Positions 1,758-24,291 of a DNA stretch of 64,000 nucleotides are shown here, piece by piece. Under the pieces are notes generated by a model. That model saw only the letters and a program-made list of their open reading frames with translations, was not told the origin of the DNA and did no database searches. The stretch lies in contig NZ_JAPWHB010000001.1 in NCBI RefSeq assembly GCF_027214025.1, positions 496,001 to 560,000 of the forward strand, given 5' to 3'. The stretch is from Parahoeflea alexandrii (GTDB lineage: Bacteria > Pseudomonadota > Alphaproteobacteria > Rhizobiales > Rhizobiaceae). A program made the translations under genes and the position numbers. Within the stretch, counting starts at the first letter, position 1. Each line of letters opens with the position of its first letter.

Positions 1758-3338
1758 TCAGCCGAGCGCTGCGATCACCGCGTCTGTCTTTGTCACCAGC
1801 GACACGTTCTGCAGCGCGTAGTTAATCGAGGCATTGTGCCAGTCGGCGTTCATCGTCGAGCATCCGTCTTCCGGGATCACCATGACGTAGCCCTTGTCCG
1901 CCCCGGTGCGGGCGGTGTGCTCGATCGACATGTTCGTCCATGCGCCCGTTTCGATGATCATGTCGCGGCCTTCGGCCTTGAGAATGGTTTCGAGATTCGA
2001 CCCTTCCCATGCTGACATGCGCATCTTTTCCACCACGAAATCGCCCTCTTGCGGCTCGAGGCCGGCAACCGGCGCACCGCCCCAGGTGCCGCGGACAAGG
2101 GCCGCATTGTCGATCACGCCTTCAAACAGCGGGGCGTTCAGCGTGAGTCCCTTTGCGCCTGGCGGCACCAGAAAATGAACATGGATCACCGGCACGCCCA
2201 GCGAACGGCACCGCTCGGCGAGCCGGGCGATGTTGGCGATGGCGTTCTGCTGCCGGCAATGCTCGGGCGAACCGCTGTCTGCAAACGCGCCTCCCTCCAT
2301 GACGACATCGTTCTGCATGTCCTGGATGATCAGCGCGCAGCGGCTGGCGTCGAGCCTGAGCGGATCCGATCCATCGCTGGGGACGGCGGCAGAGGGCGTG
2401 GCAGACGAGGAAGTGCTGCCACGTGCCCGCATGAACGGCTCGTTGCGAGGACCGACCTTCACATCGACGGCGTAGACCGAGGTCGTTGCACAGACATATA
2501 GCGTGCGCCAATCGGACCCGCCCCAGTGCAGGTTCGCGGGCAATTCGGGAATGGAGACCTTGCCCAGAAGCCTGCCGGAGGGGTGATAGACCCAGAGCCC
2601 CCCGGGCGCCGTGCACCAGACATTGCCTTCCGCATCGCATTTCATGCCATCGGGCACGCCGGGCAGCAGGCTGTCGCGAATGCCGGAGGCAAACACCTTG
2701 CCGTGCTTGAGGGTTCCATCGGACTGAACCTGATACACCCTGATGTTGGCCTGCTCGGTATCGTTGATGTAGAGCAGGCTTTCATCCGGCGAAAAGCACA
2801 GCCCGTTGGGCATGGAGAACGTGTAGCGGTCGACAACCAGCTCCGGCTCGTCGCCGGGACGATGGCCCGGAGGCAACCGGAACACGCCCTGCCAGCCAAG
2901 TTCCCGCGGCCGTTCGATGCCGTAAACCGGCATGCGCCCGTACCAGGGATCGGTGAACCAGATCGATCCATCGGACTTGACGCAAATATCGTTGGGCGAA
3001 TTGAGTTCGCGCCCCTCGTAGTGGCTGGCCAGCACTTCGCGCCGGCCATCGGGACGAAAGCGGGCGACTGAGGACGTGGCATGTTCGCAGACCAGCAGGT
3101 TGAGATCCCTGTCATAGGTCATGCCGTTGCCCTTGTTGGATGGGCGCAACACCTCGCGCACGCCGCCCCGGTCAAGCCGGCGGCGCACATCTGCGGGCAT
3201 GTCCGAGAACAGGAGATACTGATCCGCCGGATGCCAGATCGGACCTTCGGTAAAGGTGAAACCACTTCCTGCCTGGCGCACCGGCGCGTGCTCGTCGATC
3301 AATCGCCGGAAGTCCGGATCCACAGCCTGATGAGCCAT
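1758..3338 (-). CDS. SMP-30/gluconolactonase fused to an isochorismatase-like hydrolase
   Basis: The protein has 526 residues and two catalytic folds. Residues about 20-300 form an SMP-30/gluconolactonase beta-propeller with the expected metal ligands: Glu31 (FTEGP), Asn116 (NSPND), Asn178 (MPNGL) and Asp230 (GVPDG). A Ser/Ala-rich linker (about 305-328) leads to an isochorismatase-like (cysteine hydrolase) domain with Asp340 (IIQDMQND) and Lys438 (VEKMRM). The position normally held by the catalytic Cys in TNxCVExTAR is Ser471 (TNMSIEHTAR). The lactonase half should open a sugar-type or other lactone. The second half may be an altered amidase or inactive. The start has a good ribosome-binding site (GGGAGG). 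It is the last gene of the long minus-strand operon and begins 12 bases after the lactonase gene. Confidence 0.85.
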   Translation of the reverse strand: MAHQAVDPDFRRLIDEHAPVRQAGSGFTFTEGPIWHPADQYLLFSDMPADVRRRLDRGGVREVLRPSNKGNGMTYDRDLNLLVCEHATSSVARFRPDGRREVLASHYEGRELNSPNDICVKSDGSIWFTDPWYGRMPVYGIERPRELGWQGVFRLPPGHRPGDEPELVVDRYTFSMPNGLCFSPDESLLYINDTEQANIRVYQVQSDGTLKHGKVFASGIRDSLLPGVPDGMKCDAEGNVWCTAPGGLWVYHPSGRLLGKVSIPELPANLHWGGSDWRTLYVCATTSVYAVDVKVGPRNEPFMRARGSTSSSATPSAAVPSDGSDPLRLDASRCALIIQDMQNDVVMEGGAFADSGSPEHCRQQNAIANIARLAERCRSLGVPVIHVHFLVPPGAKGLTLNAPLFEGVIDNAALVRGTWGGAPVAGLEPQEGDFVVEKMRMSAWEGSNLETILKAEGRDMIIETGAWTNMSIEHTARTGADKGYVMVIPEDGCSTMNADWHNASINYALQNVSLVTKTDAVIAALG

Positions 3339-3350
3339 GCTAACCTCCCA

Positions 3351-4199
3351 CTATACGGCAAACCAATTGCGTTTCGGAACGGTCTGGCTGACCGGACCGG
3401 GTATCTGCATGTCCAGCCGCCCGATCACCTGGCCATGCTCGATCAGGGCCGGCTTGTCGTGCACGGGCAGAAGGAACCTCGACGAGTTGAGCAGCTTCTT
3501 GATGGCAGCCTTCTCGGAGCGCTTCGAGCCGGCGTGGTTGCCGGTGACCTGCGGTTCATGATCGCTGATCTGGAAGACCGGTTCGATGATCTGGTCGTTG
3601 AAATCATAGATCACGTCGCCACAGATCGTCGCCCGGCCCTCCGCGGTCTCGACGTGGACATTCATCGAGCCCTCGGTGTGCGCGTTTGCGGCTTCCATCA
3701 CCACGCCAGGGATGATTTCCACCGGACCTGACAGTTCAAGGTCTTCAAGCCGCATGGCATGGCGCGTGTGCAGCCGCTCGATGAGATGCTGGATATCGGG
3801 TTTCGGATATTGCGGATGCATCAGGCCCGAAACCGAACACTCGAGTTCGCGGCGATTGATCACCACGGTGGTGTTCATCGGGAAGTGATCATCCTTGCCG
3901 GCGTGATCGATATGCAGGTGCGTATGCAACACGTACCGCACGTCGCCGGGCTTGACGCCATGATTGGCGAGCTGCCGCTCGATCATGTTTTCGTGGAACT
4001 GGAGCCCGCGCATGCCGAGCGTCTCCATGATCGCATTGTCGCGGTAGCCGGTGTCGACAACGATCGGATATTGCCCGCCAAGGATCAGGAAACCATAGAC
4101 CGGCACCCTGCGGACCCTGCCACAGTCGCGCGCAAGCACGAGGAAACTCGATTCCAGTTCGATATCGCCAAAGTCCAGAACTTTGATTTCCAAAGCCAT
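3351..4199 (-). CDS. N-acyl-homoserine-lactonase-like metallo-beta-lactamase-fold hydrolase
   Basis: This 282-residue protein carries the zinc-binding signature HTHLHIDHAG, a later HTEG and an acidic ligand in CGDVIYD. The overall layout is that of AHL-lactonase (AttM/AiiA-type) family members. These enzymes hydrolyse lactone rings. In this operon the substrate is more likely a catabolic intermediate than a signal, although quorum quenching cannot be excluded. I chose the ATG at 4199 because GGGAGGAG lies six bases upstream; a TTG two codons earlier is less likely. The gene sits 15 bases after the amidohydrolase gene and before the SMP-30 fusion, so three hydrolases end the operon. Confidence 0.8.
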   Translation of the reverse strand: MALEIKVLDFGDIELESSFLVLARDCGRVRRVPVYGFLILGGQYPIVVDTGYRDNAIMETLGMRGLQFHENMIERQLANHGVKPGDVRYVLHTHLHIDHAGKDDHFPMNTTVVINRRELECSVSGLMHPQYPKPDIQHLIERLHTRHAMRLEDLELSGPVEIIPGVVMEAANAHTEGSMNVHVETAEGRATICGDVIYDFNDQIIEPVFQISDHEPQVTGNHAGSKRSEKAAIKKLLNSSRFLLPVHDKPALIEHGQVIGRLDMQIPGPVSQTVPKRNWFAV

Positions 4200-4214
4200 T
4201 TGCAACTCCTCCCA

Positions 4215-5096
4215 TTAGATCCGATAGGCGCGGCTCGCCGTGCCGTAAAAGATGTCGTGCCGCTGTGCGCCGCTGAGCGCGGCCGCGCCCGAAACATGTG
4301 CGTCGAGAAGTTCGGGATAGCTGGTCCAGAGTTTCTCGATCGGGAAATTCGATCCCCACAGACAGCGCTCCGCCCCGAACATCTCAACCGTCGTTGCGAT
4401 CAGCCAGGCTATATGACCGGGATCGTTGCGGTGGATGAAGGTGCCGAACCCCGACAGCTTGGCCATCACATTGGGCCGGGCGGCGAGCTCGGCCAGATTG
4501 GTCCGCCAGAAAGCGCGGCCCTCTTCGCTGGTGTCCTCAAGCATGCCTGCGTGCTGCAGCACAAAGGTAATGTCCGGACAGGCGTCGGCGAGCACACAGG
4601 CGCCCGGCATCTGGGCCGCGAACACCTGCAAATCAAAGCTCCAGCCGTAAGCTGCCAGATGCCGGATGTTCCGCTGGATCGTTTTGTCGAGGCACAGGTC
4701 CGGCTCGCGCGCGAAACGATAGAGCGGGTTTTCGTGCCAGTGAAACTGTTGCCGGACGCCGCGCATCAGCGGATAGCGGGCAAGCCTGTCCAGCATCGGG
4801 CGCGCGTCCTCGACGCCCATGTCGGCATAGCCGACAATCGCCTGCGGCCAGCCGGTCTCGGCCGCCACCTCGGAAACCCAGGCGACTTCAGCCTCGGCCT
4901 GATCGACCGGCCAGTTGGCCTGAACATAGACTGATTTTTCAACGCCGGTTGCCGCGATATCCTCTTGGTACTCCGCCATCAGGTAATCCCGGCGGATCGG
5001 CTCGTAGGGGCCGAAGATGCGCGGCTGCATCGGTCCTGACAGCCACGGCAGATCCGCCTGCCGCCAGACGTGGAAATGTGCGTCGATCACCTTCAT
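4215..5096 (-). CDS. Amidohydrolase 2 family (TIM-barrel metal-dependent hydrolase)
   Basis: This 293-residue protein begins MKVIDAHFHVW, the H-x-H metal motif that opens amidohydrolase_2 proteins. It continues with a mid-protein His (VLQHAGML) and ends with WGSNFPIEKL, the family's equivalent of the GSDFP motif. Members include lactonases such as 2-pyrone-4,6-dicarboxylate hydrolase and L-rhamnono-lactonase, as well as decarboxylases. The start at 5096 is fixed by an ATGA overlap with the end of the VWA gene. An in-frame upstream extension would run through that gene and is rejected. Together with the flanking lactonases it points to hydrolytic catabolism of a cyclic compound. Confidence 0.82.
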   Translation of the reverse strand: MKVIDAHFHVWRQADLPWLSGPMQPRIFGPYEPIRRDYLMAEYQEDIAATGVEKSVYVQANWPVDQAEAEVAWVSEVAAETGWPQAIVGYADMGVEDARPMLDRLARYPLMRGVRQQFHWHENPLYRFAREPDLCLDKTIQRNIRHLAAYGWSFDLQVFAAQMPGACVLADACPDITFVLQHAGMLEDTSEEGRAFWRTNLAELAARPNVMAKLSGFGTFIHRNDPGHIAWLIATTVEMFGAERCLWGSNFPIEKLWTSYPELLDAHVSGAAALSGAQRHDIFYGTASRAYRI

Positions 5097-6241
5097 GCCC
5101 TGGCTCCCTTTGAAAAGGCGAGAATTTCGCGCGCGAGTGAAGTAGGGGTTGAGCCGTCGCCCAGGCGATCCAGCATCGGGAAGATGGCCTGCATCGCTCC
5201 GGTCTCGGGCCGGTAGGCAGGATCGGACGCCAGCGGCGACAGCCACAACACCGACCAGGCCAGTCCCCGCAGCCTGGTCATGGAGGCTGCGAGTGCTTCC
5301 GGTCCGCCGCGCTCAAGCCCGTCGGAAACCATGATGACCAGAGCTCCACGGGCAAAGGAGGCGAAGCGGGGCACCGACAGGAACACGGCCAGCGCTTCCC
5401 CGAGCCGGGTGCCGCCATCCCAGTCAGCCACCAGCCCGGAGGCCAGCGTCAACGCCTGTTCGCGATTGCGATGCTTAAGCGCCCGCGTCACCCGCGTCAG
5501 CCGGGTGCCGAGCGTGAAGGCCTCCACCCGTTCGCCCGCCTGCACCAGGGCATGGCACAGCCGGAGCGCGCCATCGGTGCCCGCCTTCATCGATCCCGAC
5601 ACATCAACAAGGACCAGGACCCTGCGCTGCCTGGTGCGGCGGTGGCGCGTCGGCAGCTGGCTGATTTCACCGTCACGCCGTAGCATGTCACGGAACGCCC
5701 GGCGCGGATCGGCCAGACGCCCGTTGCCAGGCGCGGAGCGCCTGGATTTGCGCCTTGGCAGCGTACCGGGTGCGGCTCGTGCAAAGGAGCGCAAGGCTGC
5801 CTCATCATCGTCGGGTGCGAGCATTCGGGCAAACAGCCGCTCGGCCGTGGTGGCATCGGCGCCCGAGGGATCCTCTTCGGGGCTTTCCGGCATCAGGTCC
5901 AAATCACCGGCGTCAAAGGCTTGCGGCATGTCCTCCGGTTCGCCCATGGCCGGTGCGGAGAGCGCGCGGCCCAGGAACACCGCGTCGAAGATCGCGTTGA
6001 ATGTCTCGATCCGGTCGGGACCGGGCCCGAAGGTTGCGTGCGCCGCGCGGCGGATATCGCCGATCGATCTCGGTCCGAGCAGGCCGACCCCGGCAATGAA
6101 AGCCTGAACCTGTTCGGGTGCGACGGCCATGCCCGCGCCGCGCAGCGCCGTGGCAAATTCCACGAAGGGCTCAAGTGCACGCGGAATGTCCATTGAACCG
6201 GTCGACTGCGGGGGGATGTGCCGGGCGGAGGTGTCGGTCAT
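5093..6241 (-). CDS. VWA-domain protein of the CoxE type
   Basis: This 382-residue protein has a C-terminal von Willebrand A domain with an intact MIDAS metal site (VDVSGSMKAGT) and MVSDG further on. The N-terminal half is the helical region typical of CoxE-like proteins. CoxE and its partner AAA+ ATPase CoxD are known in carbon-monoxide dehydrogenase operons, where they help mature the metal cofactor of the molybdenum enzyme. The partner ATPase gene is immediately downstream and overlaps it: VWA start at 6241, ATPase stop at 6238. Translational coupling and stoichiometric production are therefore likely. In this operon the client is presumably the molybdenum hydroxylase encoded at 7119-11099. 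Confidence 0.85.
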   Translation of the reverse strand: MTDTSARHIPPQSTGSMDIPRALEPFVEFATALRGAGMAVAPEQVQAFIAGVGLLGPRSIGDIRRAAHATFGPGPDRIETFNAIFDAVFLGRALSAPAMGEPEDMPQAFDAGDLDLMPESPEEDPSGADATTAERLFARMLAPDDDEAALRSFARAAPGTLPRRKSRRSAPGNGRLADPRRAFRDMLRRDGEISQLPTRHRRTRQRRVLVLVDVSGSMKAGTDGALRLCHALVQAGERVEAFTLGTRLTRVTRALKHRNREQALTLASGLVADWDGGTRLGEALAVFLSVPRFASFARGALVIMVSDGLERGGPEALAASMTRLRGLAWSVLWLSPLASDPAYRPETGAMQAIFPMLDRLGDGSTPTSLAREILAFSKGARA

Positions 6242-7119
6242 GCCACCGCCTCCTGCAACAGCGCGTCAAGCCGCGGCGCCATGAACGCCAGGTCATCCTG
6301 ATCCTTCAAGGCCACGCCGATCGCCCGGGCAAATGCGCGCGGCCACGCGACGCCCTGGCTGTGAAGCAGCGTCGCGGCCTGCGCCCATTCCACCGTCTCG
6401 GCAACACCGGGCGGCTTGGCGAGCGGCTCTGCCCTCAGGCCACCGACCGCGGCGACCACCTTGCGCGCGGTGTCCTGCGCCACGGTCGACGCCCGCATCA
6501 TCACGATCCGCGCCTCGAGGTCTGGCGCCGGGTAATCGATCCAGTGATAGACACAGCGCCGGCGCAGCGCCTCGTGCAATTCGCGGGTCCGGTTGGAGGT
6601 CAGGACAACGACCGGCGGCTCGCTGGCGCGAATGGTGCCGCGTTCGGGGATCGAGACCGTAAAGTCCGACAGGAACTCGAGCAGGAATGCCTCGAACTCG
6701 TGATCTGCGCGATCTATTTCGTCAATCAGCAAGACCCGTTGCGCCGGCGCTTGCAGGGCCTGAAGGATCGGCCGGGCAATCAGGAATTCGTCGGCGTAGA
6801 GATTGATGTGGTTGTCGCCCGCCTGGCGGATCGACAGCATCTGGCGCGGGAAATTCCATTCGTACATGGCCGCGGATGCGTCGATGCCTTCATAGCATTG
6901 CAGGCGAACCAGTTCCCGGCCCAGGACCGAAGCCAGCGCCTTCGCCGCCTCGGTCTTGCCGACGCCGGGCGCACCCTCCAGCAGCAGCGGTTTTCCCAAT
7001 GCAAGCGCCAGATAGGCGGATGTGGCCAGTCCCTCATCGGCAATATACTGCGCATCGCGCAGGCTTTGTGCCAGCGGCTCGGGACCATCAAGGCCGAGTA
7101 TGCTGGACCGGATCGCCAT
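6238..7119 (-). CDS. MoxR-family AAA+ ATPase (CoxD-like)
   Basis: This 293-residue protein has Walker A GAPGVGKTEAA, Walker B VLLIDEIDRAD, a sensor-like TSNRTREL and the arginine-rich segment LRRRCVYHW. These are typical of MoxR ATPases. MoxR proteins work with VWA-domain partners as chaperones that insert metals or assemble complexes. CoxD is thought to act in this way on the molybdenum-copper centre of CO dehydrogenase. The gene overlaps the C-terminal large-subunit gene by ATGA (7119) and the VWA gene by four bases. It belongs to one translationally coupled module with both. The substrate of the enzyme it matures here is unknown. Confidence 0.88.
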   Translation of the reverse strand: MAIRSSILGLDGPEPLAQSLRDAQYIADEGLATSAYLALALGKPLLLEGAPGVGKTEAAKALASVLGRELVRLQCYEGIDASAAMYEWNFPRQMLSIRQAGDNHINLYADEFLIARPILQALQAPAQRVLLIDEIDRADHEFEAFLLEFLSDFTVSIPERGTIRASEPPVVVLTSNRTRELHEALRRRCVYHWIDYPAPDLEARIVMMRASTVAQDTARKVVAAVGGLRAEPLAKPPGVAETVEWAQAATLLHSQGVAWPRAFARAIGVALKDQDDLAFMAPRLDALLQEAVA

Positions 7120-8141
7120 CAGAGCGCCTTGCGCGGCCGTGCGCCGCCTATCGCCTTGAGCCCGCGCAGCACCTTTTCCGGCGTGACCGGAAGATCGTCG
7201 ATGCGCACGCCGATCGCGTCATAGACCGCGTTGACCACCGCTGGCAGCACCGGATTGGCGCACATCTCTCCCGGTCCCTTGCCGCCATAGGGGCCGTCGG
7301 GCGCCGGACGTTCCAGCACCGAGATGTGATGCGGCGCCAGGTCTCCCGGACCCGGCATCAGGTAGAAATTGAAGTCCCGCGGGCCGTGCTCGCGCGCCGG
7401 ATAGTAGGGCTCGGTGGTCTCCCAGATCGCGTGGCTCATGCCCATCCAGGCGCCGCCGCGCAATTGCTGCTCGACCAGTTTCGGATTGAGCGCGCGCCCG
7501 ACCTCATAGGCAGACTGCATGTCGAGAACAGCCACCTCGCCGGTCTCGTCATCGACCTCGACCTCCACCAGCATCGCCGCATGGGCAAAACAGGACACCG
7601 GGGTCATCTCACCGGTCTCGGGGTCGACTTCCGACAGGGGGATCAGGAAGATCCCGCGTCCGGCGATGGTGCGGCCCTGCTTGAACTGCGCCGCCTGCGC
7701 CGCAGCCATGGTGGTGATCGATCGCGAGGGTGCGCCCTTGACGTGGATGTTGCCGCGCCCGTCGGTGACCAGGTCGGCGGCGTCGACTTCCAGTTCCTCG
7801 GCTGCAGCCTCCAGCATCACCGAGCGCGCTTCAAGCGAGGCCTGGATGACGGCATTGCCCATCCGGTGGGTGCCGCGCGAGGCGAATGATCCCATGTCGT
7901 GCGGGCCGGTGTCGCTGTCGGCGGTGTCGACATAGACATCCTCGATCGGCACACCGAGCGTTTCCGCCGCGATCTGCCGGGTGACGGACTTCATCCCCTG
8001 CCCCAGGTCGATTGCCGAGAGCGCCACGGTGAACTTGCCGTCGGGATTGGAATGAACCAGCGCCTGGCTCGGGTCGCCGCCCAGATTCATGCCGATGGGA
8101 TAGTTGATTGCCGCGAAGCCGCGGCCACGGTGGAGTGCCAT
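7119..8141 (-). CDS. Molybdenum hydroxylase large subunit, C-terminal half
   Basis: This 340-residue protein corresponds to the second half of a xanthine-dehydrogenase/CoxL-type molybdopterin subunit. It contains NYPIGMNLGGDPSQ, DLGQGMKSV, SFASRGTHRMGNA and the C-terminal GKGPGEMCANP. Glu292 there is the conserved catalytic glutamate. Its ATG overlaps the TAA of the preceding gene as TAATG, with AGGAGG directly upstream, so it is a separate translationally coupled polypeptide and not a frameshift product. An open frame extends upstream to 8537 but shows no family similarity and would run inside the preceding gene. This half must pair with the N-terminal half (8141-9826) to build one active site. 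Confidence 0.85.
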   Translation of the reverse strand: MALHRGRGFAAINYPIGMNLGGDPSQALVHSNPDGKFTVALSAIDLGQGMKSVTRQIAAETLGVPIEDVYVDTADSDTGPHDMGSFASRGTHRMGNAVIQASLEARSVMLEAAAEELEVDAADLVTDGRGNIHVKGAPSRSITTMAAAQAAQFKQGRTIAGRGIFLIPLSEVDPETGEMTPVSCFAHAAMLVEVEVDDETGEVAVLDMQSAYEVGRALNPKLVEQQLRGGAWMGMSHAIWETTEPYYPAREHGPRDFNFYLMPGPGDLAPHHISVLERPAPDGPYGGKGPGEMCANPVLPAVVNAVYDAIGVRIDDLPVTPEKVLRGLKAIGGARPRKAL

Positions 8142-14879: not shown

Positions 14880-14905
14880 CTCTTCCTCCCCTGGCGCGTT
14901 GCCAG

Positions 14906-15733: not shown

Positions 15734-15735
15734 GA

Positions 15736-17916
15736 TTACGCCTCTCGTCTGCGGGCTGGACGGCCACCGCCATGAAGCGCGCGGAAAGCGGCAACGACGG
15801 CAGCGGCGAATTCTGGATCATTGATATGGTTCGGAAGCCGGATCAGCTGCCGGTTCGATGTCTGCCGGACCGTGGCTTCAAGCGCCGAGAAGAGCGCCTT
15901 GCGCGCGACAGGATCGTTAAACGCCTGACCGGGTGCATCGAGCGCCGATACCCCGCCCTCGGGCAGGAAGAAGCGGACCTGGCCTTCCATCTGGTTGAGA
16001 CGCTCGCCGATCCACCGGCCCATGGCGGTGCATTCCTCCGGCGTGGTGCGCATCAGCGTCACCTGGGGATTGTGCGGGTAGAAGGTGCGGGACTGGTATT
16101 TCGCGGGCACCGTCTCGGGGGCTGCGAAGTTGACCATGTCCAGCGCGCCGACAGAGCCTATATAGGGCATCCGAGTGCGAATGACGGCGCCGAAGCGGTC
16201 TTCCTTCGCCGGGAACACCCCGTCCATCATCATGTCGCAGATTTCGGTGGTGGTGATATCGATCACGCCCGAAACCTTGCCGGAATCGATCAGTTTCTCC
16301 ATAGACTGGCCGCCAATCCCGGTGGCGTGAAAGACCAGGCAATCATAGGCGTCATCGAGCAGGCCGACGATCTGCTGCACGCTTGGCGTCGTGACCCCGA
16401 ACATGGTGAGCCCGACAGCGGGTTTTCCAGGCGCCTTGGGCTTGGCTCCGCGCCGTGCCTTGACCATGCCGATCATGGCATGGGCTGCGTTGCCGAGGAC
16501 TTCCTCGGTGATGGAGTTCAACCCCTGCACATCGGCCACCGAGTGCATCATGGTGATATCGGAGGGACCGACATATTTGCCGACCTCGCCGGAGGCGACG
16601 GTGGAGACAATCAGTTTGGGAACCCCGATCGGCAACGCGCGCATCGCCGGGGCGACCATGGCGGTGCCGCCGGAGCCGGCCGCAGAGATGATCCCGCCAA
16701 TTCCCTGCTGGCGCTCGATCCAGCGCGAAAAGGCAAGCGTCATTCCGGCGACCGATTGCCCCCGGTCTCCGGTGAAGACACCCGCCGATCCGCGCGGATG
16801 GAATGCCGCGATCTGATTGGCCGGAATTTCGGCTCCCGAATGGGCGCCGGACGTCGATAGATCGACAAGCCGGACCGGAAGCCCCGCCGCGCGTATCTGG
16901 TCGCGGATGAAGCGCAGTTCGGCGCCCTTGGTGTCGAGCGTGCCGGCCACCAGCACCACGCTGTCACCGGGGCTCGCCAATTGCCTGATTTCCGCCTGCC
17001 CCGAGGTCACCGACGCATGCCCCGTGGTGACCACTCGTGCCGAGCGTTCGATCTGGGCCACCGGCGTGGGCTGCGACCACCGGGTCGGTGAAACCGGATT
17101 GGACATGTAGATTTTGACCGAATGCCCCGCCGACGCCGTCTTTTGCGTCTCGTCGGCGGACGGCGTTTGAGGCGCCTCGGGCGTGTCGTCATGGCTGTGC
17201 CGGCCAACACCGAGAAGGCGTTGCTGCAGCTCGCGGTCCGCAGCCAGCTCCCCGGCAGGCGCAATCCGGTTGATGCGGCCGTTGACCATGATCGCCACAT
17301 TGTCCGAGATCCCGCAGGCGACGCCGATGTTCTGCTCGATCACCAGAACTTCGATGTCGCCCTCTTCGGACAGGCGGACGAGCATTTCCTCGACCTGGGC
17401 GACGATGACCGGAGCCAGTCCTTCGGTCGGTTCGTCCATCACCAGCAGCTTCGGATTGGACAACAGCGCACGTGAAATCGCCAGCATCTGCTGTTCACCA
17501 CCCGAAAGCTGCGCCCCGCCATTGCTCTTGCGCTCGGCAAGCCGGGGGAAGGTCGAATAGATCCGCTCGACCGTCCAGGCTCCGGATTTGGTGGCAACCA
17601 TCTGGAGATGCTCGTCAACCGAGAGAGAGCGCCACAGCCGGCGCCCCTGCGGGACATAGCCGACGCCCATCCGGGCGATCTCGGCCGGTGTCTTGCCGAC
17701 CAGCGACTGGCCGGCGAAATTGATCGAGCCGGACGCCACAGGCACCATGCCCATGATCGCCTTGCACAGCGTGGTCTTGCCCATGCCGTTGCGGCCGACA
17801 ACCGAAAGCACGCCGCCTTCGAGCTTCAGATCGACACCCTGGAGCGCGTGGGACGCGCCGTAGAAAACGTTCAGTCCCCGGATATCAAGGGCCGGAGTGC
17901 GACCGCGCTCAACCAT
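15736..17916 (-). CDS. LivF-type ABC ATPase fused to a Tm-1-like (UPF0261) domain
   Basis: This 726-residue protein has two parts. Residues 1-235 are a complete ABC ATPase of the LivF type: Walker [10 protein letters not shown] (41-49), signature LSGGEQQ (137-143), Walker [11 protein letters not shown] (157-166), and VIEQN. A low-complexity linker (about 236-315) follows. Residues about 318-726 are a UPF0261/Tm-1-like ATP-binding domain ([18 protein letters not shown]-like glycine-rich [34 protein letters not shown]). The ATPase should power the neighbouring permeases. The role of the second domain is unknown. The gene overlaps the end of livG by eight bases and is followed two bases later by the TIM-barrel gene. 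Residues run continuously through the junction with no stop or frame change. Confidence 0.87.
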
Positions 17917-18706
17917 GACCGTCCCCCAGATAGAGTTCCTGGACTTCCGGATCGTTCTCGATCTCTTCGGGCGTTCCCTCCTTGAAGATCCTGCCGTTGT
18001 GCATCATCGTCACGCTTTCGGCGACGCGCAGCGCCACATCCATGTCGTGTTCGATGATGATGAAGCCGATATGCGATGGCAGTCCGGTGAGAATGGCAAC
18101 GAGTTCGGCACGCTCGGTCGGAGACAGCCCTGCGGCGGGCTCGTCAAACAGGATGAAGCGCGGCGCACCGGCGAGCGCCAGCGCGATTTCCAGCTGGCGC
18201 TGCTGTCCGTAGCTGAGTTCGGACACCAATGTATCGCCTGATGCGGTCATGTGAACCGCCTCGATCAGTTCCGCCGTGCGGGTGAGCAAGGGATCACCCC
18301 GGCGCGGCCTGAGAAGCGAGAAGCGGCCGCGCGAAACGCCTCGGCAGGCCAGGTAGACATTGTCGGAAACCGTCAATCCACCAAAAAGCAGGCTGATCTG
18401 GTAGGTTCGGCGCAGCCCGCGGCGGATCCGCTCATAGGCCGGAAAGTTGCTCACATCCTCGCCAAATAGCCGGATGGTGCCGGATGTGGGCAGAAAGTCC
18501 CCGGTGATGCAGTTGAACAGGGTAGTCTTGCCCGCGCCGTTGGAACCAAGCACCGCGCGACGCTCGCCGGGACGGACCGAGAGCGTTATGTCCTCGATCG
18601 CCGCCAGCGCACCGAACATCTTGGTCACGCCGCGTAGCTCGAGCGCATTGCCGGAACTGACAGAGGCGAGGGTTTCGGAGCTTCTCCGCGTGTCGAGAAG
18701 GGTCAT
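17909..18706 (-). CDS. Branched-chain-amino-acid-type ABC transporter ATPase (LivG)
   Basis: This 265-residue protein has Walker A GSNGAGKTT, a signature variant LSYGQQRQLE, Walker B FILFDEPAAGLSP and an EHDMDVAL switch motif. The length and the 'RRTYQIS' region fit LivG. An open frame extends far upstream but lies inside the permease gene. The real start is the ATG at 18706, which overlaps the livM stop as ATGA. Substrates of Liv-type (HAAT) importers range from amino acids to aromatic acids and amides, so the name describes the family and not the cargo. Confidence 0.9.
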   Translation of the reverse strand: MTLLDTRRSSETLASVSSGNALELRGVTKMFGALAAIEDITLSVRPGERRAVLGSNGAGKTTLFNCITGDFLPTSGTIRLFGEDVSNFPAYERIRRGLRRTYQISLLFGGLTVSDNVYLACRGVSRGRFSLLRPRRGDPLLTRTAELIEAVHMTASGDTLVSELSYGQQRQLEIALALAGAPRFILFDEPAAGLSPTERAELVAILTGLPSHIGFIIIEHDMDVALRVAESVTMMHNGRIFKEGTPEEIENDPEVQELYLGDGHG

Positions 18707-19755
18707 TTCGCCTCCCCGGTCAGTGGATCCCTGCCACGACCCTTGCGGGCGCGCCAGCGTTCCCAAAGCCCCAGAACGCCATCGGGAGAGAAGAACACGA
18801 CGGCCAGAAATCCTAGACCGATCAACAGCTTGAAGCGTTCGCCCGACAGGCCGAATCCGGTCAGGATGTCTGGCGAGAAGGTGCGCAACACGGTGTAGAT
18901 CAGCGCGCCGATGAAGGGGCCGATCGGCCGGCGGACGCCGCCGACCACGGCGATCACCAGAATATCGATCACCGCCGGAATTCCGGCCGTGCCCGGGGAA
19001 ATCTGGGCATTCTGCCAGACCAGCAGAATGCCCCCAAAGGCAGCAATCACAGAGGCGAAGGTGTAGGCGGCGATCCGGTGGGCGGTGACGTTGAAGCCAA
19101 GCGCCGCCATACGCCGCGGATTGTCCCGAACGCCCTGAAGAGCCAGCCCGAAGGGCGAACGCGAAACATAGACCACGGCAAGATAGGACAGCACCGCGCA
19201 GCCTAGCGTGAGATAATAGAACGGCATCGGCTGGCGCCAGTCCACGCCGAACAGGTGTGGGGGAACGACGAGGTTGAACCCGGAATAGCCGTTGAAAATG
19301 CCGTAGTTCTGGCGCGTGAAGTAGAAAAACGCCGACGCGATCGCCAGGGTGATCATGATCGTGTAGATGCCTTCGGTCCGCACCGCGAGCGCACCGACAA
19401 GCGTGCCAAACGCGGCCGCAACGATCACCGCGATCGGTATGTAGAGCCACCAGGGCAGGTCCATGCTGATCGCCGCGACGCCGGATGTTCCAAAGATCGC
19501 GACCATGTATCCGCCAAGGGCTGCAACCGACATCTGGATCAGGCTGACCATGCCGCCATAGCCCGCAAGGAACATCAGGCTGAGCGCAATCATGCCAAGC
19601 ACAAAGGTCCAGCCGAACACCTGGAAGAGGATGAAATCGTTGACGAAGGCGGGCATGATCAACGCCACCAGCCCGGCGATCCACCATGCGGTCGGGATCC
19701 GTTCGGCCCAGGAGGACTGATAGGGTGTTGAGCGTTCAACAAGCGCCATGGTCAT
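18703..19755 (-). CDS. ABC transporter permease (LivM)
   Basis: This 350-residue hydrophobic protein has about eight to nine membrane segments. It shows the family stretch LAGYGGMVSLIQMSVAALGG (about residues 63-82) and the EAA-like loop LALQGVRDNPRRMAALGFNV. It forms half of the membrane channel together with the LivH-type protein encoded three bases upstream. It is coupled to livG by an ATGA overlap. Confidence 0.92.
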   Translation of the reverse strand: MTMALVERSTPYQSSWAERIPTAWWIAGLVALIMPAFVNDFILFQVFGWTFVLGMIALSLMFLAGYGGMVSLIQMSVAALGGYMVAIFGTSGVAAISMDLPWWLYIPIAVIVAAAFGTLVGALAVRTEGIYTIMITLAIASAFFYFTRQNYGIFNGYSGFNLVVPPHLFGVDWRQPMPFYYLTLGCAVLSYLAVVYVSRSPFGLALQGVRDNPRRMAALGFNVTAHRIAAYTFASVIAAFGGILLVWQNAQISPGTAGIPAVIDILVIAVVGGVRRPIGPFIGALIYTVLRTFSPDILTGFGLSGERFKLLIGLGFLAVVFFSPDGVLGLWERWRARKGRGRDPLTGEAK

Positions 19756-19758
19756 CCC

Positions 19759-20772
19759 TCATCGCGTTGATCCGAGCAGGCCCTGGGGGCGGAAGGCCAG
19801 CACTGCGGCCATGATCAGGAATGTGAAGACAACCGAGTAGGTCGGGGCATAGACAAGCCCGATCTGTTCGGACAGACCGATCACCAGTGCCCCGATGGCA
19901 GCGCCCGGGATCGATCCCATGCCGCCGACGATCACCACGACCAGACTTGCCAATAGGAAGCGCGTATCCTCGCCGGGCGACAGCGACTGGAATGTGCCGC
20001 CGACGATGCCCGCCATTCCCGCAAGGCCGGCGCCGAAGGCGAAAACCGCCAGAAAGACATACTGGATCCGGACACCGGAGGCGGCGAGCATTTCACGATC
20101 ATCGACACCGGCGCGGATCAGCATGCCAAGCCGGGACTTGTTGAGCACCAGCCACATCGCGATGCCGATGGCGATGGCCGCGACAAGGATCGCAATGCGC
20201 ACTGCCGGGTATTTGAGGTAGACCACGTCGCCGCTGGATTTGATCGATGAGATGATCGGCAGCACCGTCGGGCCGCTCAGCCATTCGGGCGACAAGATCG
20301 TGTAGGACTGCCCTCCCCAGATCCAGAGCATGATGTCCGCGATCACCACCGACAACCCGATGGTCACCATCGTCTGGCGCAGTTCCTCGCCTTCCATGCG
20401 GCGGAAGACCTGGTTCTGCAAAATCAGCCCGAGCGCCGCCACCACGATGAACACCACCGGAAAGGCCAGAACCCATGAACCGGTCGCGTCGGACACCTCA
20501 TAACCGACATATCCGCCCAGCAGATACAGCGAGCCATGCGCCAGATTGACGTTGCGCATCAGCCCGAAGATCAGCGTGAAACCGGATGCAACAAGAAAGT
20601 ACAGCGCACCGAGGGTAATTCCGCCGAAAAACGCATTGAGGAAAATACGCTTTGCCCCGATCGCGTCGACCAGACCCTCAGGCCATGGTGCGAAGATCAG
20701 CCACAACACGATCGCCACCGCGATGGCGATGATCAACGACCAGATCGGTCTGCGACTGTAAAAACCTCTCAT
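19759..20772 (-). CDS. ABC transporter permease (LivH)
   Basis: This roughly 337-residue membrane protein contains the LivH signature FGLMRNVNLAHGSLYLLGGY and a conserved loop RAGVDDREMLAASGV. I chose the ATG at 20772 (MRGFYSRRP), directly before the first membrane segment. A TTG at 20835 would add 21 residues and cannot be excluded. The 126 bases upstream, after the AraC gene, may carry a separate promoter, since TAGGAT lies at about 20820-20825 on the minus strand. I see no clear -35 partner. Confidence 0.87.
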   Translation of the reverse strand: MRGFYSRRPIWSLIIAIAVAIVLWLIFAPWPEGLVDAIGAKRIFLNAFFGGITLGALYFLVASGFTLIFGLMRNVNLAHGSLYLLGGYVGYEVSDATGSWVLAFPVVFIVVAALGLILQNQVFRRMEGEELRQTMVTIGLSVVIADIMLWIWGGQSYTILSPEWLSGPTVLPIISSIKSSGDVVYLKYPAVRIAILVAAIAIGIAMWLVLNKSRLGMLIRAGVDDREMLAASGVRIQYVFLAVFAFGAGLAGMAGIVGGTFQSLSPGEDTRFLLASLVVVIVGGMGSIPGAAIGALVIGLSEQIGLVYAPTYSVVFTFLIMAAVLAFRPQGLLGSTR

Positions 20773-20898
20773 GCGTCCAGCCCGTAATTTCGGCCCGGCC
20801 TTGCCGGACCAATAAACAGATCCTAGCCCCTTCAAAGCCTTGCATGCATACCCGACAGTCTTTTCGTTGCGCTCAGGGTCGGGAAAACATCATCCGGG

Positions 20899-21729
20899 CT
20901 AAGCGACATGAATGCTGCGGCGGTAGGCCGATGGAGGAACGACGCCGTTTGCTATGAAGAACCGCGAAAAGCTGGCCTGGCTTGAGTAGCCCAGATCAAA
21001 ACCGATATCGGACACCGCCTCCTGAGTAACCGCCAGCCGTTCGATGGCTCGCTCCATACGCAAGGCATTGAGATAGAGGTTCGGAGTCAATCCGATTTGT
21101 TCGCGGAACAGTTTGTAGAAATGCGGCCGCGACAGGCCGACTTCACGCGCCACTGCATCCAGCGCCAAGGCCTCACCGACGCGCTGCTGCAAGACTCGCA
21201 AGGCATTGCGAATGCGATAATCGCGCTTGGCGAACATTGGGCCGGTGAAACAATCGCCCTTGCTCGTCCATTGCAATGATTGATCAAACGCCAATTGCGT
21301 GAGGGAGCACAACCGCTCCTCCAGCAGAGCATCTTCCTTGTCGGGATCCAACATCGATTGTGTCGTGCCGAAAACCAGCCGCGCCAGCTGATCGGTTACT
21401 TCAATGCCGACGCGACCGAAACTGAGCGATGCTGTCGCCCGGCGCGAGGCCTCGAGGAACCAGGCCGGGCGGATATAGAGAACAAGGGCCAAAGTTGGCC
21501 CCTCACGGTGCAAACGGTTGTAATGATGGGACTGCCAGGGGCTGACCGCAACCGCCTGCCCCGGGGCCAATGGCCAGCGGCGATCATTGACCACCATCTC
21601 GGCCGGCGGGCCCTGAATATGGAAAACAAGATGACCTTCGCGGTGTCCGTGAGGCACCATTCCGCGATCCATCAAATATAGGCACACTCTCCCGAAAGCA
21701 CCATGAAACACAGACAATGCAGTGCTCAT
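20899..21729 (-). CDS. AraC-family transcriptional regulator
   Basis: This 276-residue protein has an N-terminal cupin-like sensor region (residues about 20-110; HREGHLVFHIQG, SPWQSHHYNR) and a C-terminal pair of helix-turn-helix motifs (about 175-270). These include LSRPHFYKLFREQIGLTPN and DLGYSSQASFSRFF. The start has a strong GGGAGGAG. It lies between the alcohol dehydrogenase and the permease genes on the same strand, so it probably senses the imported compound or a product and controls this operon. The region upstream (21730-21845) is AT-richer than its surroundings. Confidence 0.9.
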   Translation of the reverse strand: MSTALSVFHGAFGRVCLYLMDRGMVPHGHREGHLVFHIQGPPAEMVVNDRRWPLAPGQAVAVSPWQSHHYNRLHREGPTLALVLYIRPAWFLEASRRATASLSFGRVGIEVTDQLARLVFGTTQSMLDPDKEDALLEERLCSLTQLAFDQSLQWTSKGDCFTGPMFAKRDYRIRNALRVLQQRVGEALALDAVAREVGLSRPHFYKLFREQIGLTPNLYLNALRMERAIERLAVTQEAVSDIGFDLGYSSQASFSRFFIANGVVPPSAYRRSIHVA

Positions 21730-21845: not shown

Positions 21846-22907
21846 CTAAAAAGCCTCCTCGAGCAAACGTAGATAGTCTTCTGCGGACGCCAACCGGGGA
21901 TTGGTTTGGTTTGCAGGGTCTACTGCGGCAGCCTGCGCCGCGCGACGAAGCGACGCCCGCCCCAGGCCCAATGGTCCGATCCTCTCGGGCAGACCAAGCC
22001 TGGCTCCCAGCTCGGTGATCGCCGAAGCGACATCGCAGCCGGCCCGCAATCCGATTGCTTCACGAACCACGGGAAGCCGGTCGCTTACAGCAGGCAGATT
22101 GAAGCTGAGAATGTGAGGAAGCAGAGCCGCATTGAGCGAACCGTGCCGCCCGAACATGCCTGCCTCGGCTTCCAGCGCTCGTGCAGCTGCATCGATGCCA
22201 CCGAGCCCTTTTCGCGCCGACAGCCCTGCGTTGAGTGCTGCCGCGAGCATCTCGCGACGAGCCTCCACGTCACTCTGGTCTTCGACCGCGCGCGCCAAAT
22301 GGCGCATGGCCCGCCGCAACCCTTCCAGCGCAATGCCATCAGCGGGTGGATTGAACGCGGTTCCCAGATAGGCTTCGAGGCAATGCGTAAGGGTATCCAT
22401 TCCGGCAATTGCCGTCGCATATGCGTTGTTGCCAAGCGTCAGAGTGGCATCGCAAAGGACAACCGACGGGTTCTTGGGATTGAGGATCGGCAGGTCGGAA
22501 ATCGCTCCGCCAATGGGACCTAGTCCAACGCTTTCAGTGGTTGTCGGTATCGTCAGCAAGTGCGCCTGATTACCTCTCTTGGGAGGCGCATCGATCACCC
22601 GCGCCAGATCGAGGGCAACGGCGCCACCAAAGCCGATCACCGCATCGCAGCCGTTCTTGAGATAGGTCTTCGATGCGGCGCGAACCTGCGATGCTTTGAC
22701 CTGCGGCCGATACCCGCTCAGATGGACAGGTGCGCAATCCGCCGGAAGCGCATCGATAAGCCGTTCCAGGCAATCTTCATTTTCGCCAGCCTCATCGGTG
22801 ACGATCAACGGGCGCCTTATGTCCAGCTTGCGCAATTCCTCCGGCAAGGCGTCCTCCAGGACGCGGTCGGCGAAATGAATCCGGGTCATGAATGAAATCA
22901 ATGACAT
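21846..22907 (-). CDS. Iron-type alcohol dehydrogenase, divergent
   Basis: This 353-residue protein has the fold-level pattern of group III (iron-dependent) alcohol dehydrogenases: a metal-ligand Asp in CDATLTL, D-x-x-x-H in AGMDTLTHCLEAYLG and a later His pair in GRHGSLNAALLPH. The usual NAD-site GGGSxxD reads GFGGAVALD, and the usual TTAGTGSEV reads TTTESVGLGP. It is therefore a divergent clade, and the cofactor or substrate may differ. Maleylacetate-reductase-like or hydroxyacid-oxoacid activities occur in the superfamily. It lies 124 bases downstream of the binding-protein gene and 116 bases upstream of the AraC gene. Confidence 0.83.
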   Translation of the reverse strand: MSLISFMTRIHFADRVLEDALPEELRKLDIRRPLIVTDEAGENEDCLERLIDALPADCAPVHLSGYRPQVKASQVRAASKTYLKNGCDAVIGFGGAVALDLARVIDAPPKRGNQAHLLTIPTTTESVGLGPIGGAISDLPILNPKNPSVVLCDATLTLGNNAYATAIAGMDTLTHCLEAYLGTAFNPPADGIALEGLRRAMRHLARAVEDQSDVEARREMLAAALNAGLSARKGLGGIDAAARALEAEAGMFGRHGSLNAALLPHILSFNLPAVSDRLPVVREAIGLRAGCDVASAITELGARLGLPERIGPLGLGRASLRRAAQAAAVDPANQTNPRLASAEDYLRLLEEAF

Positions 22908-22986: not shown

Positions 22987-23020
22987 GCCACTGGCCGGGA
23001 GCATGTTCCCGGCCAGTGGC
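22987..23020 (-). terminator. Perfect 14-bp stem-loop after the binding-protein gene
   Basis: Bases 22987-23000 and 23007-23020 are exact inverted complements (GCCACTGGCCGGGA) around a six-base loop. The hairpin begins 11 bases after the binding-protein stop codon. There is no T-run after it on the minus strand, so full Rho-independent termination is doubtful. A hairpin here more likely stabilises the upstream mRNA or partly attenuates reading into the downstream genes, as is common between binding-protein and permease genes. Confidence 0.6.
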
Positions 23021-23031
23021 CTTGGTGTGTA

Positions 23032-24291
23032 TCAGCCCTTGCCACCGAGCGCGGTGCAGTCAGGTGTGTCGCGTGAGGGAAGGCCCATTGCGCGGAATTC
23101 GTCCGGCGTCATGCCCAGCGTCTGGTTGACATTGTCGACGCGTGACTTGAGCTCGACCTTGAGGCCGCCTGCCCCGTCTTCAACCACTTCGGTGATGAAG
23201 ACCGAACCCGATGCCTGACGGTTCTCGTTGAGCGTTACTGTGCCCAGCGGGGTATCAAGCGGCTTGGTCGAGAGCGCTTCCCGCAGTTTGGCCTGTCCGT
23301 CGCCCAGATCTCCCCCGACTTCGTTGATGCCCTGGATCGCCGCCAGCGCTGCGACATAGTAGCCAACGCCGAACAGTGATGGCGACGGGAACCGTTCACT
23401 TTCCGGGAATGCGTCCTGATAGGCCTTGACGTAAGCCTGCCATGCCGGGCTCGGATCGTCCGTGGCCAGCGGACCGGATGTCGGCGTGCCGATTAGCGCA
23501 TCCTTCGCCCGTCCCTTCGAGGTCAGGACGGTCTGGTCGGCCATGATGGTGCCGCCAATAAGATTGGTTTCCGCACCGGCCTGTTCGTACTGGTTAAGGA
23601 AGTTGATGGCGTCCGTGCCGCCAACCCCGAGATAGATCGCATCGATGTCATCGGGCATCGCCGCAATCACGCCACCGAAATCGGAGGAGCCCAGCGGCAC
23701 CCAGAACCGCTCGACGATTTCACCGCCGGAACGGCAGAAATCGACAGCGAAACCAAGGAAGTTGGTGTAGCCGAAGGAGTAGTCGGCAGCCACCGTGGCA
23801 ACCTTGTTCCATCCCTTCTCCTTGACCACATATGAGCCAAGGCCGGCGCCCCATTGAGAGCCATCAAGATTGAAACGGAAGAAGTTCGGGGCCGGATCGA
23901 CCCAGGTCGTTTCAAGCGCGCCGGAAATACCATTTATAATGGTCTTGTCGGGCACTGTCTTTGCGTAGTCGCGCATGGCGATGCCTTCCGAGCCGGAGAG
24001 CGGCCCGAGAATGATGTCCACGCCATCCTGCTCGATCAGCTTGCGCGCCTGGCGCACTGCCGTGTCCGGCGTCGTGTCACTGGGTGCCACCACGAGTTCG
24101 ATCTTCTTGCCGCCGGCCATGCCGCCGGCCTGCTCGACTGCCAATTCCACATTGCGGACACCATCGGCGCCGCCGGCAGCAAAAACGCCTTCCAGCGCAA
24201 CCAGAACGCCGATCTTGATTGTATCCTCGGCCATTGCTCCCGCGGGCAGCAAGAAGCATGTCGCAACCGAAGCGAATAATGCCTTCTTCAT
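23032..24291 (-). CDS. ABC transporter periplasmic substrate-binding protein
   Basis: This 419-residue protein begins with a Sec signal peptide (MKKALFASVATCFLLPAGAMA) and then DTIKIGVLVALEG, the opening of Peripla_BP_6 (Leu/Ile/Val-type) proteins. Inside are GPLSGSEG, DYSFGYTNFLGF and a YEQAGAETN segment. The ATG at 24291 is supported by AGGGAGGA and by the signal peptide; an upstream extension is unlikely. It is the first gene of the long minus-strand cluster and should deliver the unknown substrate to the permeases at 18703-20772. Confidence 0.92.
   Translation of the reverse strand: MKKALFASVATCFLLPAGAMAEDTIKIGVLVALEGVFAAGGADGVRNVELAVEQAGGMAGGKKIELVVAPSDTTPDTAVRQARKLIEQDGVDIILGPLSGSEGIAMRDYAKTVPDKTIINGISGALETTWVDPAPNFFRFNLDGSQWGAGLGSYVVKEKGWNKVATVAADYSFGYTNFLGFAVDFCRSGGEIVERFWVPLGSSDFGGVIAAMPDDIDAIYLGVGGTDAINFLNQYEQAGAETNLIGGTIMADQTVLTSKGRAKDALIGTPTSGPLATDDPSPAWQAYVKAYQDAFPESERFPSPSLFGVGYYVAALAAIQGINEVGGDLGDGQAKLREALSTKPLDTPLGTVTLNENRQASGSVFITEVVEDGAGGLKVELKSRVDNVNQTLGMTPDEFRAMGLPSRDTPDCTALGGKG

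Follow-up and report, generated by a model that had tools for sequence, protein, structure and literature searches.

In the genome of Parahoeflea alexandrii (GCF_027214025.1, contig NZ_JAPWHB010000001.1), genes for a Liv-type importer, a flotillin, and a molybdenum hydroxylase stand in one long minus-strand run, which raises the question of whether they form a single unit and what that unit does. The window analyzed here is the whole 64,000-nt stretch at positions 496,001–560,000 of the forward strand; the coordinates below refer to it, and all features described lie on the minus strand.

Extent and conservation of the block

The run comprises twenty genes (1758–24291), and 16 of its 19 gaps are no longer than 26 bp, including nine overlaps, with the remaining three measuring 63, 116, and 124 bp. 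Of 80 loci with homologous blocks, from soil and marine bacteria (Bradyrhizobium, Hoeflea, roseobacters, Acuticoccus, and Roseomonas), 78 were collinear. Meanwhile, the flanks (2–7 kb, compared at 40% identity over 60% of the length) had hardly anything in common: no gene family occurred in any two of the eight downstream flanks, and upstream none occurred in more than 6 of 92 stretches. The original prediction of a roughly twenty-gene operon, conserved as one unit and not as random subsets, was thus borne out, with the caveat that both halves of the block also occur apart. The operon is real, far beyond chance. Profile matches (Pfam; NCBIfam for LivM) likewise confirmed the gene families that had been named, to which Pfam added an iron-containing alcohol dehydrogenase and an AraC-family regulator.

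We would divide the block into two modules. Module A would comprise LivHMG, a LivF-UPF0261 fusion, a PF09370 protein, flotillin, and two SRPBCC proteins, and module B the FAD and [2Fe-2S] subunits, a two-piece molybdopterin subunit, a MoxR/VWA maturation pair, and a fuconolactonase-like hydrolase. Module A stands without the molybdenum genes in L137, L140, L141, L148, and L150; in the last, the one module-A-only locus scanned, SRPBCC protein 1 forms a fusion with a quinone-reductase-like dehydrogenase, and an Amidohydro_1 gene precedes it. Module B stands without module A in L168–L173 and L223–L231.

Importer, flotillin, and SRPBCC proteins

The importer includes a Liv-type periplasmic binding protein (23032–24291; PF13458, 1.1e-60), found in 73 of 80 loci, whose solved relatives in a PDB comparison are of the Liv, urea, and extracellular-ligand-binding types. 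It is followed by an optional iron-containing alcohol dehydrogenase (21846–22907; PF25137/PF00465; 22 of 80 loci, with none detected in all 50 Bradyrhizobium-type loci) and the AraC-family regulator (20899–21729; PF12833; 74 of 80). The permeases are LivH (19759–20835; PF02653, 8.4e-33), for which an internal ATG about 63 bp downstream is a possible start (the gap to the AraC gene would then be about 126 bp), and LivM (18703–19755; 78 of 80), matched by NCBIfam UrtC/LivM models at scores below their cut-offs. The LivG ATPase (17909–18706; PF00005, PF12399) was present in all 80 loci. A mechanically called ORF (17909–19687) crosses most of LivM in a different frame; LivM and LivG are separate genes, and a frameshift or assembly error was rejected because the same separate genes recur across loci.

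The LivF ATPase (15736–17916; PF00005) carries as its C-terminal half a complete UPF0261 (Tm-1-like) domain, with both the N-terminal (PF06792, 1.2e-58) and C-terminal (PF23189, 4.2e-88) domains present, and this half aligned along its full length with its top PDB match, tomato Tm-1 (3wry, 311.6 bits). All 81 loci had the fusion as a single ORF; 80 of these loci had been retrieved using the fusion protein itself. The adjacent gene encodes a TIM-barrel protein of the PF09370 family (14906–15733; 1.1e-131; PDB 2p10, 401.6 bits), the usual partner of UPF0261. In plants, the two families occur fused in Tm-1, an inhibitor of tomato mosaic virus (PMC5028733). Both domains are found in the block, in adjacent genes, but PF09370 is a separate gene and UPF0261 is fused to an importer ATPase, which corrects the original gene list. 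Elsewhere, stand-alone UPF0261/PF09370 pairs adjoin SBP_bac_1/BPD_transp_1 ABC genes and genes for an M24 peptidase, a cupin, and a 2-hydroxyacid dehydrogenase; as a clue to the substrate, these neighborhoods are suggestive only.

The flotillin (SPFH) gene (11985–14879) matched PF01145 (Band_7, 8.9e-17) and the flotillin C-terminal domain PF15975 (5.6e-31), and scored 45.8 bits with the FloT equivalog NF058507, below its cut-off of 700. By eye, its sequence has a hydrophobic segment at the N terminus and a long charged repeat region. Flotillins build membrane cages (PMC11260169). The next two genes encode SRPBCC protein 2 (11547–11984; PF10604, 2.3e-27) and SRPBCC protein 1 (11096–11542; PF10604, 2.7e-21). 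For SRPBCC protein 1 (AlphaFold mean pLDDT 93.3), a fold search against the PDB gave, among the best 50 of 350 matches (E up to 0.001), generic helix-grip hits that are not specific, led by uncharacterized bacterial proteins and then abscisic-acid receptors.

Molybdenum hydroxylase, maturation pair, and hydrolases

The hydroxylase has an FAD subunit (CoxM/NdhF-like; 10296–11099; PF00941, PF03450), a [2Fe-2S] subunit (CoxS/NdhS-like; 9823–10299; PF00111, PF01799), and a molybdopterin subunit in two pieces, the first NdhL-like (8141–9826; PF01315, PF02738; PDB 3hrd_A) and the second NdhM-like (7119–8141; PF20256; top PDB match 3hrd_B). The two molybdenum genes meet in a TAATG stop/start overlap, and in all 175 loci carrying both, each gene has a stop codon of its own; here, too, a frameshift or assembly error was rejected, because the same separate genes recur across loci and an RBS-like AGGAGG lies upstream of the second. 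The FAD, FeS, and molybdenum subunits of the predicted “CoxSLM-like” enzyme were all found, but the label is loose, since its “CoxL” is two genes closest to NdhL/NdhM.

The maturation pair consists of a MoxR-type AAA ATPase (CoxD/MadB-like; 6238–7119; PF00004, PF07728), which reached 258.8 bits with the NCBIfam MadB model (cut-off 475), and a VWA_CoxE protein (5093–6241; PF05762, 5e-43). Then follow an Amidohydro_2 protein (4215–5096; PF04909; PDB 4dlf, 4.8e-18), whose nearest NCBIfam model, L-fucono-1,5-lactonase (NF052480), gave 108.8 bits, below its cut-off of 400; a metallo-beta-lactamase-fold lactonase-like protein (3351–4205; PF00753; 69.2 of 325 bits with a 4-pyridoxolactonase model), absent from some relatives; and an SMP-30/gluconolactonase domain fused to an isochorismatase-type hydrolase (1758–3338; PF08450 + PF00857), the last gene of the block here and also in L111, L151–L153, L155, L159, L161, and L166.

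C-terminal peptide of the first molybdopterin subunit

The first molybdopterin subunit ends in a Pro-rich linker and a conserved C-terminal peptide, RFSSxSGxRRR; here its last 11 residues, RFSSLSGFRRR, occupy 8141–8176 together with the stop codon. F552, G557, and R559 were invariant in 32 of 32 alignment rows, in which the linker was variable. The tail was present in 102 of 103 distinct proteins from stretches containing flotillin, with a divergent tail in the exception (L260). It was found in none of the eight first molybdopterin subunits with at least 6 kb visible upstream and no flotillin there, nor in four more genomes whose separately retrieved upstream pieces (L169, L173, L261, L262) contained no flotillin. 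The pattern first used was too strict (33 flotillin-bearing proteins were negative, 32 of them visibly tailed) and was widened after inspection of the tails; it was widened again for the tree, with L260 then counted as tailed. On that tree, the association between tail and flotillin is one event; therefore, docking of the molybdenum enzyme at the membrane by its tail is suggested but not proven, flotillin is not separable from the rest of module A, and coincidence is possible.

A peptide scan of the window and the collected loci found the tail only in the first molybdopterin subunit, with eight other matches that looked like chance, and a signal common to other block proteins was rejected, since no convincing copy stood at other gene ends. 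The flotillin C termini, inspected as a possible receptor of the tail in 18 of the sequences extracted, gave no pointer to a binding site: they were mostly acidic and DDDDRDR-like in module-A-only loci, and other, mostly Lys- or Gly-rich tails in full-block loci. The AlphaFold model of the whole first molybdopterin subunit is mediocre (mean pLDDT 66.3), so that the low confidence of its linker is not very informative.

We put at about even chances the explanation that the block is one catabolic unit of two modules, a membrane-tethered import-oxidation-hydrolysis pathway with a docked molybdenum enzyme. A small compound would be imported and received at the inner membrane by module A and oxidized by module B, and the accessory hydrolases (the metallo-lactonase and the SMP-30/isochorismatase protein) would open the oxidized product. 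On union of the modules, the first molybdopterin subunit would have gained a flexible Pro-rich arm and the conserved peptide, which would most likely dock the enzyme on a module-A component (flotillin or a partner held by flotillin); uptake, oxidation, and delivery of electrons to the membrane could then occur together, with channeling. The earlier idea of a membrane-organized enzyme gains some independent support from the peptide that accompanies the flotillin-bearing block. Gene content, collinearity, the split subunit, the fusion, and the tail with its distribution are observations; the docking, its partner, channeling, and the reactions are what we infer from them.

Somewhat less probably, the block would be an ordinary conserved catabolic operon with a soluble molybdenum hydroxylase, in which flotillin does no more than aid the importer or general membrane order; the tail would then serve translation coupling or folding. 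The last codons of the tail, AGG AGG CGG, double as the Shine-Dalgarno-like sequence of the second molybdenum gene, and among 80 sequences, 47 of them Bradyrhizobium-type near-relatives, 74 had AGG as the third-last codon and 78 had AGG or AGA as the second-last, a match to a Shine-Dalgarno sequence; the three terminal arginines are largely dictated by this sequence of the next gene. No partner of the tail is known, and tail and module A were gained or lost jointly just once. However, a ribosome-binding site accounts for RRR, but not for RFSSxxG, which is kept over synonymous codons behind an unconserved linker: four synonymous codons encode its first serine (TCC 35, TCG 15, TCA 11, and TCT 5, of 80), and therefore selection seems to act on the peptide. 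Moreover, the tail-less relatives keep the same split gene pair.

Known systems and the candidate substrate

The nearest solved enzyme and best PDB match of both molybdenum pieces is the nicotinate dehydrogenase NdhFSLM of Eubacterium barkeri (3hrd), with four subunits and a molybdenum subunit split at the corresponding place, as here; a review (PMC10331938) lists its genes as NdhF, NdhS, NdhL, and NdhM, the same succession as in the block. This favors a pathway for N-heterocycles like those for nicotinate or 3-hydroxypyridine, in which the molybdenum enzyme would hydroxylate an aromatic ring next to the nitrogen, the SRPBCC proteins would bind the substrate or serve as an anchor for the enzyme, and the isochorismatase domain would be a late amidase. 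We regard such a pathway as unlikely: where aligned xanthine and nicotinate dehydrogenases have a loop Phe, the block enzyme has an invariant Met, as in 4-hydroxybenzoyl-CoA reductase; a Pfam scan of the block proteins found no oxygenase for ring cleavage; and lactonase-type genes would be unexpected. Nor does 3hrd_A (425 residues) have the C-terminal linker and peptide, which belong to the first molybdopterin subunit of the block. We know of no importer, flotillin, or MoxR/VWA genes beside nicotinate dehydrogenase. Ensifer adhaerens reportedly has a four-component 3-hydroxypyridine dehydrogenase, HpdA, with a separate SRPBCC subunit, a likeness in subunit makeup that also favors a heterocyclic substrate.

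The Oligotropha cox operon, given as coxBCMSLDEFGHIK in PMC4240915, where CoxG is proposed as recruiter of CO dehydrogenase to the membrane, resembles the block in its FAD, FeS, and molybdenum subunits, its AAA (CoxD) and VWA (CoxE) genes, and possibly a small membrane-recruiting partner. In contrast, its CoxL is a single chain with a Cu-binding loop, whereas the molybdenum subunit of the block is two genes, and it is without the UPF0261, PF09370, flotillin, and Liv importer that the block has. The active-site loop here is ATAMRGFG, invariant across 32 aligned rows, where 8uem has AYACSFR, of the AYxCSFR type that marks form I CoxL; CO dehydrogenase was rejected on this ground, as had been predicted. 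A form II CO dehydrogenase operon with unusual neighbors, despite the cox-like AAA and VWA_CoxE genes, is highly improbable given the absent form I loop, the split large subunit, the dedicated solute importer, and the lack of any CoxF/CoxG family match among the block proteins (Pfam scan, E 0.001; the SRPBCC proteins matched PF10604/PF03364 only, with no XdhC/CoxF-type protein). Literature searches for the gene set found no paper, in agreement with the original statement that no described pathway with it was known.

We would guess that the substrate is polar and sugar-like, or otherwise able to form a lactone, rather than CO. The locus contexts hint at such a compound: where module B stands apart, its neighbors include a Peripla_BP_4 binding protein, a family generally linked to sugars, with a BPD_transp_2 permease (L225, L231), an aldo-keto reductase (L225), a DHDPS-type protein (L228), and an aldehyde dehydrogenase (L172), and also a GntR regulator (L227) and a sodium:solute symporter (L230), which are not sugar-specific. 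The Liv-type binding protein, with its Liv, urea, and extracellular-ligand-binding relatives, argues against a plain sugar. In a bolder and rather doubtful form of the docking proposal, the flotillin cage would be a membrane metabolic compartment, combining import by an ABC transporter whose ATPase bears UPF0261 as a fused ATP-binding enzyme, action of UPF0261 and PF09370 at the exit (an ABC analog of group translocation), and oxidation by a molybdenum hydroxylase that its C-terminal peptide, at the end of a disordered arm, would dock on the flotillin assembly.

To our knowledge, no bacterial function has been assigned to UPF0261 or PF09370, and hardly any docking signals are known for flotillin assemblies in bacteria. 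The block links UPF0261, PF09370, and flotillin to one importer and one enzyme, and it offers a short peptide amenable to mutation; it is this conserved C-terminal peptide of the first molybdopterin subunit, tied to the flotillin-bearing block, that is new. Among 397 genomes sampled from the order, 60 encode a close relative of the second molybdopterin subunit, a count that includes the genome studied here and the relatives without module A; therefore, the pathway, probably still unassigned, should carry some ecological weight.

Organization and conservation of the gene block

Twenty genes, all on the minus strand, occupy positions 1758–24291 of the window. Pfam and NCBIfam assignments gave, in order, a Liv-type binding protein, an Fe-ADH, an AraC regulator, LivH, LivM, LivG, a LivF-UPF0261 fusion, a PF09370 protein, a flotillin, SRPBCC2, SRPBCC1, FAD and FeS subunits, two Mo subunits (a and b), a MoxR-type AAA protein, VWA_CoxE, Amidohydro_2, an MBL-fold protein, and an SMP-30/isochorismatase fusion. 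From LivH through the final gene, the intergenic gaps were −8 to +26 bp, bearing out the close-packed run described in the original prediction; the only wider gaps were those between the binding protein and Fe-ADH (124 bp), Fe-ADH and AraC (116 bp), and AraC and LivH (63 bp). Just past the block end, a region of lower GC content (0.527) carries a C-terminal tyrosine recombinase domain (PF00589; 172–669, minus strand), as might be expected if the block were mobile or had been inserted.

When the LivF-UPF0261 protein was scanned against one genome per species, 168 of the 179 pattern matches encoded relatives, and the closest relatives were those of an uncultured Hoeflea and Hoeflea halophila. 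The best 80 of the 168 relatives were compared, a sample that leans to close relatives and for which the fusion itself was part of the selection. In tblastn searches with the window proteins, the detected genes were in the same order and on one strand in 78 of these 80 loci, so that the conserved neighborhood sought by the original prediction was indeed found. The two exceptions were L047, in which the binding protein gene is inverted, and L038, in which the two SRPBCC genes, which resemble each other, are out of order as judged by best hit, on a contig that is cut. In 68 loci the series from AraC through Mo subunit b was complete, several of the others being cut by contig ends. The hosts include Bradyrhizobium, Hoeflea, Acuticoccus, Roseomonas, Ruegeria, Roseobacter, and Limibaculum.

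In eight loci with DNA past the block end (L111, L151, L152, L153, L155, L159, L161, and L166), the SMP-30/isochorismatase gene was last, as in the window; the MBL gene was not detected in L111 and L155. When flanks of 2–7 kb were compared using heuristic ORFs (40% identity over 60% of the length), no gene family was common to any two of the eight downstream flanks, and none occurred in more than six of 92 upstream stretches. On a Mo-subunit tree constructed with a quick method, Hoeflea was placed next to Paracoccaceae and Roseomonas and not next to other Rhizobiaceae, suggesting that the block has been transferred as a whole. The block of L110, a record titled Frankia sp. RB7, grouped inside Bradyrhizobium on this tree, and the assembly is probably misnamed or contaminated. 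Relatives of Mo subunit b, including those without module A (described below), were found in 60 of 397 sampled genomes of the order, spread over 26 of 142 genera, in 8 of 385 of the class (E-value 1e−90), and 16 of 398 of the phylum (E-value 1e−60), all 16 inside the class; the own genome is counted each time.

Two modules that also occur separately

Searches with UPF0261 and with Mo subunit b, followed by inspection of the DNA of matching loci, showed that the block is made up of two parts that also occur separately. Module A (LivH, LivM, binding protein, LivG, LivF-UPF0261, PF09370, flotillin, SRPBCC2, and SRPBCC1) was found without Mo genes in L137, L140, L141, L148, and L150, although the PF09370 gene was not detected in L141. 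Of these loci L150 was scanned; its block is preceded by an Amidohydro_1 gene, and its SRPBCC1 forms a fusion protein with a quinone-reductase-like zinc dehydrogenase. Module B was found without module A in L168–L173 and L223–L231, some of these stretches being cut; it comprised the FAD, FeS, and two Mo subunits, with MoxR in most loci and CoxE, SRPBCC2, AraC, or Amidohydro_2 in some. The neighbors scanned included, in L225 and L231, a Peripla_BP_4 binding protein with a BPD_transp_2 permease, joined in L225 by an aldo-keto reductase; L227 had a GntR regulator, L228 a DHDPS-type protein, L230 a sodium:solute symporter, and L172, downstream, an aldehyde dehydrogenase.

In L179, LivF and UPF0261 are encoded separately. 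Nearby, adjoining the module-A-like cluster, PF09370 is fused to a sigma-54 activator with a Fis-type HTH (13859–15604 of that locus), suggesting that the PF09370 TIM barrel can act as a small-molecule sensor. Stand-alone UPF0261 and PF09370 pairs (L175–L177, L181, L183, L187, L188, L190, and L191) adjoin an SBP_bac_1-type ABC transporter, the families having been scanned on one representative each, and many are accompanied by M24 peptidase, cupin, or 2-hydroxyacid dehydrogenase genes. The own genome also has a second, divergent UPF0261 gene (G000:C67, L174), with 29% identity, next to a gene for a tripartite tricarboxylate transporter. The flotillins of the module-A-only type (L046, L137, L140, L141, L148, and L150) have an acidic Asp/Arg-rich C-terminal tail, ending exactly in DDDDRDR in four of six, unlike the full-block flotillins inspected.

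The Mo enzyme and the C-terminal tail of Mo subunit a

The large Mo subunit is encoded by two genes with different stop codons in all 175 loci holding both. The best PDB matches of Mo subunit a (8141–9826) and Mo subunit b (7119–8141) were the likewise split NdhL and NdhM of nicotinate dehydrogenase (3hrd), at 184 and 165 bits, respectively; with a profile, Mo subunit a reached 245 bits. Where CO dehydrogenase (8uem) has the loop AYACSFR, the block enzyme has ATAMRGFG. The loop Met also occurs in 4-hydroxybenzoyl-CoA reductase, whereas Phe occupies this position in the xanthine and nicotinate dehydrogenases of the alignment.

Beyond residue ~460, full-block Mo subunit a runs on as a Pro/Ala-rich linker whose length varies, and its last residues are the peptide R-F-S-S-x-S/F-G-x-R-R-R (F-x-S-G-x-R-R-R in roseobacters). 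Across 32 aligned rows, the linker had almost no conserved column, whereas F552, G557, and R559 were invariant. Among 132 distinct complete proteins from 150 loci, the tail was present in 102 of 103 with a flotillin gene in the fetched stretch, the remaining one (L260) having a divergent tail, and in none of eight with at least 6 kb of upstream DNA without flotillin. The other 21, whose upstream DNA lay outside the same stretch, comprised 13 tailed and eight tail-less proteins; for four of the latter (G726, G628, G527, and G778), separately fetched upstream DNA gave no flotillin match. On the Mo-subunit tree, for which 105 of 139 distinct rows were used after thinning of Bradyrhizobium and with L260 scored as tailed, the tail needed one change (SH-aLRT 100). 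This indicates that a single event, and not many, brought in or removed the tail jointly with module A, and that the two have since been retained in the sampled families.

Codons were counted in 80 sequences meeting a first, stricter tail pattern, 47 of them Bradyrhizobium-type. The terminal arginine codons (AGG, AGG/AGA, and mostly CGC) also form the ribosome-binding site for the gene that follows. All four TCN codons occur at the first serine, so that RFSSxxG seems to be kept as a peptide. No convincing copy of the end peptide was found at any other gene end in the loci collected for comparison.

Possible membrane recruitment, substrate, and working of the block

Mammalian flotillin assemblies, and likewise bacterial HflK/C, are described as membrane-bound cages (PMC11260169). 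The small partner CoxG is proposed to bring a Mo hydroxylase to the membrane (PMC4240915), and in Sulfolobus a dehydrogenase was reported to be anchored in a CoxG-like way (PMC11962113). The SRPBCC proteins of the block match other Pfam families, so that the likeness to CoxG is an analogy only. The SRPBCC1-dehydrogenase fusion in L150 supports an SRPBCC-oxidoreductase partnership. In fold, the structural model of SRPBCC1 (11096–11542) resembled abscisic-acid receptors and uncharacterized bacterial proteins, XoxI among them; such resemblances are probably common to proteins of this fold.

A sugar-like or lactone-forming compound is a candidate substrate, since the block contains lactonase-like domains (SMP-30, fuconolactonase-like, and MBL) and some relatives of both modules adjoin transporters of the sugar type. 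Against this count the closest solved relatives of the Liv-type binding protein, which are extracellular-ligand, Liv, and urea binders, and the mixed neighbor genes of the module relatives. An N-heterocycle is also possible, because of the NdhL and NdhM matches.

All single parts of the block belong to known families. The literature search found papers on UPF0261 and no publication with this gene set, in agreement with the original prediction, which knew of no such pathway; within the range of these searches, neither the combination nor the LivF-UPF0261 fusion nor the module-A-linked tail appears to have been described. In the working that we propose, a compound would be imported by the Liv system and handled first, at the cytoplasmic face, by the LivF-fused UPF0261 domain and its PF09370 partner; Tm-1 binds ATP. 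The Mo enzyme, matured by the MoxR/VWA pair and perhaps kept near the membrane by its tail, would then oxidize the compound, the hydrolase domains would open lactone or amide products, and Fe-ADH, where present, may carry out an alcohol or aldehyde step.
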